Assembly (NCBI GenBank): GCA_013151555.1
Contig: JAADIA010000018.1
Span: 1 to 55,194 of the forward strand
Source of the DNA: Nitrospirota bacterium
GTDB lineage: Bacteria; NPL-UPA2; JAADIA01
Direction of reading: 5' to 3'
DNA: 55,194 bases
Below, piece by piece: positions 9,098-21,041 of this stretch (within the stretch, counting starts at the first letter, position 1; each line of letters opens with the position of its first letter). The position numbers and the translations under genes are program-made. Under the pieces are notes generated by a model, which saw nothing but the letters and a program-made list of their open reading frames with translations, was not told where the DNA came from and ran no database searches.

Positions 9098-10351
9098 TTA
9101 TCTTAAAGGAGTAACGGTAAGAATCTTTCTGGCTTGCTCCGGATATGCAGCAATAAATTTCAACTCGTCGTTGGTAAGGGGTTTCTGGGTATGGACATTG
9201 GCATAACGGGCCAGCTCTAAGATTTTAGTAGCTTCCTCATCGTTTTTGAACTCTATCTCCAGCTTATCATAGACATTCCTAAATCCCTTGATACCCGCAT
9301 ATTCTCCGACGGTTATCTGCCGTCCCGTCTCTACTAACTCCGGTTCTCCCCGTCCTAGCTCCTCGTAATCATAAAGTTCATAATTCCGCCTGTCCTTAAG
9401 AGCTCCATCGGCATGAATTCCCGATTCATGGGCAAAGGCATTTTCCCCTACTCCCACCTGGTTTATCGGGAGAGGAACGCCAAAGGCATAGGAAGCATAT
9501 TTAGCAATTTTCCAGGCCCTGGAGAGGTCAATCCTTTCATCAAGGATATATTTATCATGGAGCCCACTGGACTTCTTGATCGCCAGAATCACCGAAACCA
9601 AATCAGCATTTCCGGCTCTCTCCCCCATCCCATTGATGGCTGTATTTATGTAGGTATCCACTCCCCCGTCTATTGCTCCCTTAGCTCCTGCCACTGAGCA
9701 AGCTACGGCCATTCCCAGATCGTTATGGCAGTGGATCTCTATCGGGAGATTCACCTCCTCCGCTAACATCTTTGCCCTCTGATAGATACTAAAAGGATCA
9801 TCGTAACCCAGAGTATCGCAATAGCGGAAACGGGTGGCTCCGTACTCTTTAGCTGTCCTGGCAAACCTGATAAGGTAATCATCATCAGTGCGAGAAGCAT
9901 CTTCAGCATTAACGCCGACAGTCTCTGCTCCCAATTCCTTAGCTTTCTCCAGGGATTGAATCATCATCTTAAGAACGTCTTCCCGGTTCTTTCTCCCTTG
10001 AAACTTCCCCAGAGTCATCTGCTTCGAAGTGGAGATGGAAAGATTCACATGTTTAAGTTTGGTAAGCTTAAAAGAATTCTCTACCTCCCTTTGAATCATC
10101 GGGCACCAGCCCTCCAAACGCATAGGCTTGATAACACCCATCTCCGCCAACTCTAAATTAGCATTAATATAACTTATCTCATGATGGGTATAAGGGAAAC
10201 CGAATTCACTCTGGAATACCCCCATCTCGTTAAGGAAGATATTTATCATTGTCTTCTCTAATTTAGCTAACCCTAATCGAGAAGTCTGCACCCCGTCTCT
10301 ATTAGTAACATCAACAAGGTATATTTTATTTTTCCTTTTTCCTTCACTCAT
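9098..10351 (-). CDS. Homocitrate / Re-citrate / isopropylmalate synthase family protein
   Basis: A DRE-TIM metallolyase of 417 residues. The metal and substrate motif is VTNRDGVQT near the N-terminus (instead of the DTTLRDGEQ of LeuA), with the HCHNDLGMA metal site and the HESGIHADG signature. It lacks the C-terminal leucine-regulatory domain of LeuA. The family condenses acetyl-CoA with an alpha-keto acid. The unusual N-terminal motif and the absence of leuBCD or nif neighbours make a homocitrate-synthase-like enzyme or the anaerobic Re-citrate synthase the leading options; sequence alone does not decide. AGAGAGGTAGAT supports the ATG start. It is last of the run lon-aminotransferase-serA-this gene. 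Confidence 0.85.
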   Translation of the reverse strand: MSEGKRKNKIYLVDVTNRDGVQTSRLGLAKLEKTMINIFLNEMGVFQSEFGFPYTHHEISYINANLELAEMGVIKPMRLEGWCPMIQREVENSFKLTKLKHVNLSISTSKQMTLGKFQGRKNREDVLKMMIQSLEKAKELGAETVGVNAEDASRTDDDYLIRFARTAKEYGATRFRYCDTLGYDDPFSIYQRAKMLAEEVNLPIEIHCHNDLGMAVACSVAGAKGAIDGGVDTYINTAINGMGERAGNADLVSVILAIKKSSGLHDKYILDERIDLSRAWKIAKYASYAFGVPLPINQVGVGENAFAHESGIHADGALKDRRNYELYDYEELGRGEPELVETGRQITVGEYAGIKGFRNVYDKLEIEFKNDEEATKILELARYANVHTQKPLTNDELKFIAAYPEQARKILTVTPLR

Positions 10352-10366
10352 ATCTACCTCTCTATG

Positions 10367-10476
10367 GGTCGCCGCGCCAGGATGTCTTGCAAACGCAGAG
10401 CAGTTATGCCACAGTCCGCCTCAGGCGGACGAGGAATAAGAAAGCCAAGCGAGCAAGACCCCGCCAGTAGGCGACC
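10367..10476. repeat. Three-tier nested inverted repeat
   Basis: Three perfect 7-bp arm pairs are nested inside one spacer: GGTCGCC (10367-10373) with GGCGACC (10470-10476); GTCTTGC (10384-10390) with GCAAGAC (10453-10459); and GTCCGCC (10414-10420) with GGCGGAC (10424-10430) around a TCA loop. Left and right internal spacers are near equal (10/10 and 23/22 bases). It fills almost all of the gap between serA and the synthase gene. Confidence 0.8.
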
Positions 10477-10478
10477 AC

Positions 10479-12059
10479 TCATAACTTCGCTAACCTAACT
10501 TGGAGAATTTCCTTTATCTCTTCTATATCCTTCAAGATCTTTTCGGAAACGGAACCATCCAGATTGAGAACAGTTAGTTCGTTTCCCCCTTTTGCCTTCC
10601 GGCCTAAAGTCATCGCAGCAATATTTATTCCTCCATCACCAAGAAGAGTTCCCAGCTTTCCGATGATCCCCGGCTTATCCTCATGGGAAGCAATAAGCAT
10701 ATACCCTCGGGGAACAGCATCCACATGAAAACCGTCCAGGCGAACAATTCGAGGATCCCGACGGCTAAAAAGGGTTCCGGACACCGATCCTTTATCCTGA
10801 GTGCTTTTCACCTCCAGGGAAATAAGACTGGCAAAGTCTTCCAGGGTATCGCTTGTCGTCTCCGTTACGCTAATTTCCCTTTCCTTGGCAATAACAGGAG
10901 CATTGACATAGTTGACGGCTTCTTTCAAGATAGGTTCTAAAAGACCTTTTAAAATAGCCGTCGTTATCGGGGCAAGGTCATAGTTGATAATCTCCCCACT
11001 GTACCTCACTCGCACGGCCAGAATACGGCCTTTTAAGAGTTGCGATTGGAGACGACCCAACTTTTCCGCTAATCCGAAATAAGGCTTTATTTCCTCATAA
11101 GCTTCCGGTTCAATGGAAGGAACATTAACAGCGTTACGGATAGTCCTTCCCTTAAGAACATCCACTATCTGATGAGCAATCTCTATAGCCACATTCCTCT
11201 GAGCTTCTTTAGTGGCCGCCCCGATATGAGGAGTAAGCACTAAATTATCCAGCTCCAGCAAAGGATTTTTATTCGGGGGTTCTTCCTCATAAACATCCAG
11301 GGCCGCTCCGGCAACCTTGCCGCTCTTCATTGCTTCGTAAAGAGCTTTCTCGTCGATAATTCCTCCCCGGGCACAGTTGATAATCCTCACCTCATCTTTC
11401 ATTAAGGCAAATTCCTTGCTTCCGATCAGATGCTTTGTCTCTTCGGTGAAAGGAGTATGGACAGTAATGTAGTCCGACCGGCGCAATAAGTCCTTCATCT
11501 CTACAAGCTCTACTTTCCATCTCTTAGCCGCTTCCGGAGAGAGAAAAGGATCACAGGCAATTGTTTGCATTCCTAAAGCCTGAACCCTCTTAGCTACCTC
11601 ACCCCCAATCCGCCCCAGCCCAACTATTCCCAGAACCTTTCCATGCACTTCTACCCCCATGAATCGTTTCCGGTCCCATTTGCCCTCTTTTAAAGAGATA
11701 TAAGCATGGGGAATATTTCGGGAAAGAGCTAAAAGTAAAGCAACGGTATGTTCCGCCGTAGAGATAGTATTTGCTCCGGGGCTGTTCATCACGATGATTC
11801 CGTTTTCAGTGGCAGCTTCTACATCTACATTATCCACTCCCACCCCGGCCCGGCCGACAACTTTCAGGTTCTTCGCCGCATTAATTAAATCCCTGGTTAC
11901 CTTAGTCCCACTCCTGATAATTAAGGCCTCGGCATCTTTGATCTTCTCTTTCAATTCTTCCAAGGGAAGCTTTACCGCAACTTCTACTTCAATGTCCTTT
12001 TCCTTCCTGAGAATTTCCAACCCTTCTTCAGCAAGAGGATCACTAACCAATATTTTCAT
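10479..12059 (-). CDS. serA: D-3-phosphoglycerate dehydrogenase
   Basis: The 526-residue length matches the long (type I) SerA. It oxidises 3-phosphoglycerate to 3-phosphohydroxypyruvate with NAD, the entry to serine synthesis. Visible are the Rossmann motif [13 protein letters not shown] (about 143-155), catalytic Arg in [10 protein letters not shown], Glu in VYEEEPP and His in [12 protein letters not shown]. An intervening ASB domain and a C-terminal ACT domain (about 455-526, [15 protein letters not shown]) allow serine feedback. GGAGAG precedes the ATG. It lies downstream of the class V aminotransferase, which probably does the next step. Confidence 0.97.
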
Positions 12060-17880: not shown

Positions 17881-17891
17881 AACACCCCCAT

Positions 17892-18035
17892 AAAGACAGA
17901 AGTCAGAAAACAGATATCAGAAGCCAGAAAATAAAATTAGAAATAAAGGTTCTTCTAATCCCTAATCCCTGTTTTTTTGTTTTTTGTTTTTTGTTTTTTG
18001 TCTTTTGTTCTCTGTCTTCTGTCTTCTGTTTTCTA
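17892..18035. repeat. Intergenic word repeat B (AGACAGAAGTCAGAAAACAG type), inverted halves
   Basis: The left half (17892-17931) is built of ACAGAAG/CAGAAAAC words. The right half (about 17969-18035) is TTTTTTG iterations followed by CTGTCTTCTGTCTTCTG, the complementary words. It lies between tig and tRNA-Gly. A third copy (31797-31850) encodes the BatD N-terminus. Confidence 0.65.
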
Positions 18036-18044
18036 TCTTTGGAG

Positions 18045-18116
18045 AGCGGGTGATGGGGTTCGAACCCACGACATCTACCTTGGCAAGGTAGCGCTCTACC
18101 ACTGAGCTACACCCGC
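18045..18116 (-). tRNA. tRNA-Gly (anticodon GCC)
   Basis: The reverse strand folds as a full cloverleaf: acceptor GCGGGTG/CACCCGC, D arm AGCTCAGTGGTAGAGC, anticodon stem-loop CTACCTTGCCAAGGTAG with GCC, and T arm GTGGGTTCGAACCCCAT. CCA is not encoded (CTCC follows the discriminator T), so it must be added enzymatically. Confidence 0.95.
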
Positions 18117-20897: not shown

Positions 20898-21041
20898 TAT
20901 ACTGGTTCAGGGAAGGATATATCCCGCCAGGCGGACTACTCTGCAATCTTTAACTAATAACGCTAAACGCTTTTTTAATTATGCCGCCCTTTAGGTAGAC
21001 TTTTTCCCGGGAAGAGAATAACCCCGGTTAGGTGAATCCCT

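Follow-up and report, generated by a model that had tools for sequence, protein, structure and literature searches.

A multicopy palindromic element, probably mobile, at the serA-synthase junction of a Nitrospirota bacterium

Known palindromic repeats and the serA-synthase spacer

ERIC sequences (IRU) are imperfect palindromes of ~127 bp that lie between genes within transcription units, lack coding capacity and vary in copy number among related genomes. Bacterial MITEs, including NEMIS/Correia, RUP, Nezha and YPAL, are short (70-300 bp), non-coding and multicopy, carry terminal inverted repeats and direct repeats, lie next to genes and are expected to be transcribed as hairpins; in the case of Correia and ERIC elements, such hairpins are known to be processed by RNase III or RNase E (PMC10969869). 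The GTAG- and CGTC-tagged REPs are palindromic units of 20-40 bp located downstream of genes and distributed patchily over phyla, some of which are inserted in longer palindromes, for example CGTC-1 dimers inside 41-bp palindromes (PMC3733652). Rickettsia palindromic elements (RPEs) insert without destroying genes.

In the window, meaning the whole 55,194-nt stretch of DNA analysed here, the spacer between serA and a downstream synthase gene holds an imperfect palindrome that shares with ERIC its size, its full-length imperfect palindromic form, its intergenic position within transcription units, a copy number that varies among related genomes and the lack of coding capacity. It differs from ERIC in its lineage, in an 8-9 bp duplication at two loci and in apparent modules common to different genomes, and blastn searches of the insert in E. 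coli genomes and plasmids, among them one of 20,395 E. coli records at E 0.01, returned no match. Like the bacterial MITEs, the element is short, non-coding and multicopy, lies next to genes and is expected to be transcribed as a hairpin; direct repeats are clear at two of ten insertions, and it has a length of ~110 nt, six dispersed copies in the genome and terminal inverted repeats (GGTCGCC/GGCGACC and equivalents) whose outer helix is paired in 90.7% of cells. In contrast to known MITEs, the outermost stem sequence varies yet stays complementary, and a search that covered Y1_Tnp genes identified no parental IS. With the tagged REPs it has in common its palindromic form, its location downstream of genes, a patchy distribution over phyla and a palindrome-in-palindrome arrangement, but it is one ~110-nt hairpin, ends in GGTCGCC/GGCGACC without a GTAG or CGTC end tag and has no RAYT association in the window's genome. 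On the gene strand a CGTC overlaps the apex stem, at an internal position and not at the end of the element. Like the RPEs it is a palindrome that leaves genes undestroyed, and it differs from them in being intergenic in all ten copies found. At the element no Rfam 15 family exceeded its gathering score, the best match below it being CRISPR-DR28 (14.1 bits, E 4.9, with E up to 5 considered). We file the element as a new family of an already known kind, unusual in its apparent construction from nested palindromes: the nested repeats are most probably one copy of a small, non-coding, non-autonomous and mobile palindromic element of ~110-130 bp, similar to MITEs and ERIC. The parts of the locus are listed in Table 1.

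Table 1. Coordinates of the palindromic element, its target site and the adjoining genes in the window.
Feature	Position	Strand	Remarks
Target-site duplication copy 1, CACTCATA (TATGAGTG on the gene strand)	10345..10352		Holds the synthase start codon; exact 8-bp match to 10476-10483
Inserted DNA between the target-site copies	10353..10475		123 bp, or a net 131 bp when one duplicate is counted; junction lacks the spacer in G001, G003, G004 and G005
Palindromic element, imperfect ~110-nt hairpin	10367..10476	+	Same family at five other places in the genome
Outer module, left arm (GGTCGCC...GTCTTGC)	10367..10390	+	Partner arm at 10453-10476; G003 L140 has related outer arms and a different interior
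Middle module, left side, CGCAGAGC.GTTATGCC.CA	10391..10413	+	Conserved, partly unpaired; kept in the G000 copies and in the G002 copies, which have another apex and another outer stem
Apex module, GTCCGCC-TCA-GGCGGAC	10414..10430		Core TCCGCCTNAGGCGGA, a palindromic word in its own right, is widespread
Middle module, right side, GAGGAATAAGAAAGCCAAGCGA	10431..10452	+	Conserved between G000 and G002 copies
Outer module, right arm (GCAAGAC...GGCGACC)	10453..10476	+	Arms checked as exact
Target-site duplication copy 2, CACTCATA	10476..10483		Holds the serA stop codon (10479-10481)
Likely synthase ribosome-binding site, AGAGAGG	10357..10363	-	Within the inserted DNA; read from the sequence
serA, phosphoglycerate dehydrogenase, 526 aa	10479..12059	-	Upstream gene; TIGR01327, 708.7 bits (cut-off 454)
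Isopropylmalate/citramalate/homocitrate-family synthase, 417 aa	9098..10351	-	Downstream gene; below all curated cut-offs, best TIGR02660, 274.1 bits (cut-off 462.9)

Structure, copies and placement of the hairpin

The element is multicopy, forms one long hairpin with covarying pairs and lies between genes. The first-pass annotation had described three concentric pairs of 7-bp arms with matched spacers, and all six arms proved exact: GGTCGCC (10367-10373) with GGCGACC (10470-10476), GTCTTGC (10384-10390) with GCAAGAC (10453-10459) and GTCCGCC (10414-10420) with GGCGGAC (10424-10430), the spacers measuring 10/10 nt from outer to middle arms and 23/22 nt from middle to inner arms. Short extra helices connect these pairs into a single imperfect hairpin of ~110 nt on either strand, not three hairpins. 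Folding of both strands, as had been proposed, gave a stable structure beyond the inner hairpin, with -50.2 kcal/mol on the plus strand (z -3.5; 0 of 200 shuffles equally stable) and -58.4 kcal/mol on the minus strand, from which the genes are read (z -2.7; 1 of 200). The earlier suggestion of a long irregular RNA hairpin was right as to structure, and its pairs covary. Control of serA read-through, the role proposed along with it, is not specifically favoured: mutS, rpsH, rplI and queA are followed by the same element, and the coding strand has no U-tract beyond the hairpin. Less of the resemblance claimed at 20922-20937 was retained: the minus strand there (AGTCCGCCTGGCGGGA) has the inner arm alone in common with the element and is one base off. 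The site was rejected as a second copy, and the covariance model finds none in the window.

A search of the window's genome (G000; 1.81 Mb, 99 contigs; genome-wide counts are search-based) for further copies, also proposed at that stage, was productive. A 121-bp query matched strongly on contigs C2 (92% identity), C97 (88%), C9 (82%) and C44 (84%); with the window copy on C57 these make five near-full copies (81-100% identity), which, once oriented, align over their full length. A sixth, degenerate copy lies on C55. The covariance model R1, built from the five copies and the degenerate one, found exactly six copies in G000, including that on C55. An isolated inner hairpin without a second copy had been named as the contrary outcome, and the opposite was found on both counts. 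From the G000 copies only, R1 led to four matches in two genomes of the same order, namely G002 (E 7.6e-8 and 2.2e-7) and G003 (E 1.7e-4 and 0.004), and the G002 copies exceeded 500 of 500 shuffles in sequence similarity. A DNA-similarity search for the element in 59 other genomes (E 1e-6) found no copy, a second model built from all ten copies found no further genome among 117 searched, and exact 30-nt element patterns had no match in collections of genome contigs and viral contigs. The outermost stem sequences vary between copies with complementarity kept, and the true ends of the element are uncertain for this reason; in the window, 14 nt beyond the stem fall within the insert, on one side only.

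In the ten-sequence alignment, which had been fitted to the structure before covariation was counted, 93.4% of cells were paired and 20 of 33 pairs had at least one change on both sides. None of 500 shuffles reached any of the five measures, and a control in which the partner was shifted by 1-3 columns brought pairing below 45%. The five-copy alignment, made without structure fitting, contained six pairs with two-sided changes. This covariation indicates that the palindrome is maintained, but RNA is not thereby the selected form, because template switching can correct palindromes. As to the strand of folding, a count of 16 G-U cells against 9 A-C cells decided for neither.

Of the six G000 copies, all intergenic, that of the window follows serA, and the others lie after a prephenate dehydrogenase-like (tyrA-like) gene (C2), after mgtE (C97), immediately downstream of mutS (C9), in the rpsH-rplF spacer of the ribosomal protein operon (C44) and ahead of queA (C55); gene names other than serA were read from translations. 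The G002 relatives are located after queA and between two other genes, and those of G003 after rplI and after rpsH. The element starts within ~8 nt of a stop codon in 6 of the 10 copies, and its orientation relative to the flanking genes is the same in all except L139 (9 of 10; two-sided binomial about 0.02, with copies not fully independent).

Insertion at gene junctions and alternative readings

The element was inserted at a formerly overlapping serA/synthase junction, with an 8-bp direct repeat on either side and both reading frames intact. The serA stop codon overlaps the synthase start in a 4-base ATGA in G001, G003 and G004, which belong to the same order, and in G005 of the same phylum; the two genes are 127 bp apart in the window. 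The direct repeat flanking the insert (Table 1) has a shuffle p of 0.013, and deletion of 10345-10475 in silico yielded ...TTAGCGAAGTTATGAGTGAAGG..., which restores the ATGA overlap of the relatives with both genes in frame.

The rpsH-rplF junction appears to be a recurrent landing site. Its spacer measures 9 nt in G001, 4 nt in G002, 12 nt in G008 and 1 nt in G007; it amounts to 150 nt in G000 and 119 nt in G003 with the element, and to 164 nt in G004 and 125 nt in G006 with other palindromic sequence. In G003 the copy is bounded by TGGTAAGAG, a direct repeat of 9 bp (p 0.001) that takes in the rpsH stop codon; at the orthologous junction its genus-mate G001 is empty. Duplication is well supported at these two loci only, since the other eight of the ten copies showed no direct repeat above chance. 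The mobile palindromic unit, one of the first-pass suggestions, agrees well with the six genome copies, the relatives in two genomes, the empty orthologous sites and the target-site duplications at two loci.

Two side observations concern this junction. Palindromic sequence that differs between genomes was seen there in four members of the phylum (loci L132, L133, L135 and L130, of G003, G004, G006 and G000), and a nearly empty spacer of 1-12 nt in four others. In addition, rplF in L132 (G003, contig C80) and L133 (G004, contig C115) encodes ribosomal protein L6 with a 9-residue in-frame insertion, SLHSRGSAA, that is not present in the other five rplF sequences aligned; the DNA of this insertion matches a multicopy palindromic repeat of G003 and G004, much like Rickettsia palindromic elements.

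Three inverted repeats nested by chance had been called very unlikely. When the 127-bp spacer was shuffled 20,000 times with dinucleotides preserved, three nested perfect 7-bp pairs never arose (the maximum, two, occurred in 154 shuffles), and to this extent the judgement stood; however, the 55-kb window shows such triple nesting three more times (tiles near 17,881, 27,351 and 32,881), so nesting alone is rarer in shuffles than in real sequence. Together with the shuffles, the multicopy family and its covariation leave chance a negligible prospect, the copies having already refuted it. (The nested place at 17881-18045 is a run of AGACAGAAGTCAGAA-type repeats adjoining three tRNA genes.) An intrinsic terminator of serA would account for a very stable hairpin directly 3' of the stop codon, but termination is not favoured because no U-tract follows the outer stem, where the gene strand reads CATAGAGAGGTAGAT; moreover, the sole scan match was within chance expectation and one copy lies inside a ribosomal protein operon, where termination would be costly, which makes this reading very improbable. 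Selection for a cis-acting regulatory or processing RNA, such as an mRNA-stability or RNase III hairpin whose spread was secondary, would explain the covarying pairs, the unpaired inner segments conserved across different taxonomic families, the common orientation of nine copies and the position right after stop codons within operons. Yet tight operon spacing alone favours sites just after stop codons, L139 is oppositely oriented, most orthologous junctions examined lack the element, and the neighbouring genes (serA, mutS, rpsH, rplI, queA, tyrA-like and mgtE) have no common pathway, and we regard such a function as rather unlikely to be the primary explanation.

Movement as a REP/RAYT-type element (REPIN) by a Y1 single-strand transposase appears decidedly unlikely. 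Such elements resemble the present one in that REPs are palindromic, occur downstream of genes and can sit within other palindromes (PMC3733652). G000 encodes two Y1_Tnp genes, and a Y1 gene of G080 lies amid GTAG palindromes and the same apex core. Nevertheless, no copy was present beside either Y1 gene of G000, within the flanking sequence retrieved (up to ~1.5 kb), or beside the scanned Y1 genes of G002 and G004, and the element has no GTAG at its end. Y1 (RAYT-type) transposition is not known to make target duplications, and the 8-9 bp duplications at two loci are a poor fit to it. Y1 genes were also scanned for in 15 further genomes, and among the loci fetched only that of G080 has the apex core near a Y1 gene. 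At this locus (L065, contig C16) the Y1 transposase gene is surrounded by GTAGTCGGGG palindromes and two core palindromes, in a genome with 71 core sites.

Apparent modular make-up and possible consequences of the insertion

From sequence comparison, the element looks modular, with outer, middle and apex parts common to different genomes. The G002 copies keep the middle part, unpaired bases included (GCGCAGAGC, TTATG.CGCAG, CGAG.AATAAGAAA and GCCAAG), around another apex (GCCACAGGC) and within a different but complementary outer stem. L140 of G003 has the outer part (AAGACCCCGAAGCAGGCG) with a different interior; it was compared with three copies, and for two of them its similarity was greater than in any of 500 shuffles. 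L142, also of G003, is not significant by itself in primary sequence. Its link to the family is that it is nearly identical to L140, the two differing in a palindromic insert of 69 nt that L140 carries at the apex; this insert is itself multicopy, with 7 matches in G001, 13 in G003 and 19 in G004. The apex core TCCGCCTNAGGCGGA occurs at 22 sites in G000, compared with 0 for the reversed control; 25 of 290 genomes contain it, the richest with 71 sites. An extended form was found in MAGs labelled Planctomycetota, Chloroflexi, Brocadiaceae, Omnitrophota, Patescibacteria and others, where the flanks are mostly unlike the element. A literature search for the 15-base core as a string found no paper.

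The core also appears in other settings. Within G000 it forms the apex of other long compound palindrome families with different stems (C7:3655, C8:10039, C30:37540, C55:6572 and C54:11015; loci L021, L022, L027, L034 and L032). In L049 of G093 (1472-1559) it constitutes the variable arm of a tRNA-Leu gene (anticodon TAG) accepted by ARAGORN, and in L045 of G274, near 1501 and 1916, it lies within tRNA-Asn-like sequence without an ARAGORN call, with an intact tRNA-Asn between them (1817-1891). In L090 and L126, MAG contigs labelled Dehalococcoidia and Chloroflexi, the core with CGAG after it lies within other sequences (CCCCGAG / CGAGGGG), next to a flanking GAG repeat, and looks like a small insertion.

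The concentric arms of the window copy may reflect modular growth, in which palindromes entered the apex of older palindromes; an event of this type was seen in a relative (G003), not in this copy. More tentatively, and as a possibility that we hold short of even, palindromes of this lineage might grow like Russian dolls: preferential insertion at the apex would leave an outer stem shared with G003, a middle part shared with G002 and an apex shared with many genomes of other phyla, the composite would move as a unit, and conserved operon junctions such as rpsH-rplF would be recurrent landing sites.

A transposase acting in trans with staggered cuts of ~8-9 bp would have moved the element. DDE transposases of several IS families make staggered cuts of this kind. 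A search that looked for Y1_Tnp genes found no transposase with ends matching the element. Placed within a transcription unit, the element would form a strong hairpin between the two cistrons of the serA-synthase mRNA, and mRNA ends may be shielded or laid open by it. The insert would also remove the coupling by overlap, and translation of the synthase is predicted to be uncoupled from that of serA; the insert supplies a plausible new ribosome-binding site, AGAGAGG, five nt before the synthase start codon.

In a bacterial lineage for which few relatives have been sequenced, the locus provides a clean example of a probably mobile hairpin that landed exactly in a 4-bp gene overlap. Through its target-site duplication the insertion leaves both frames intact, and it separates two genes whose counterparts in relatives overlap. 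Should the modular reading be true, it would suggest a testable way in which large structured palindromes could be built up from small ones.
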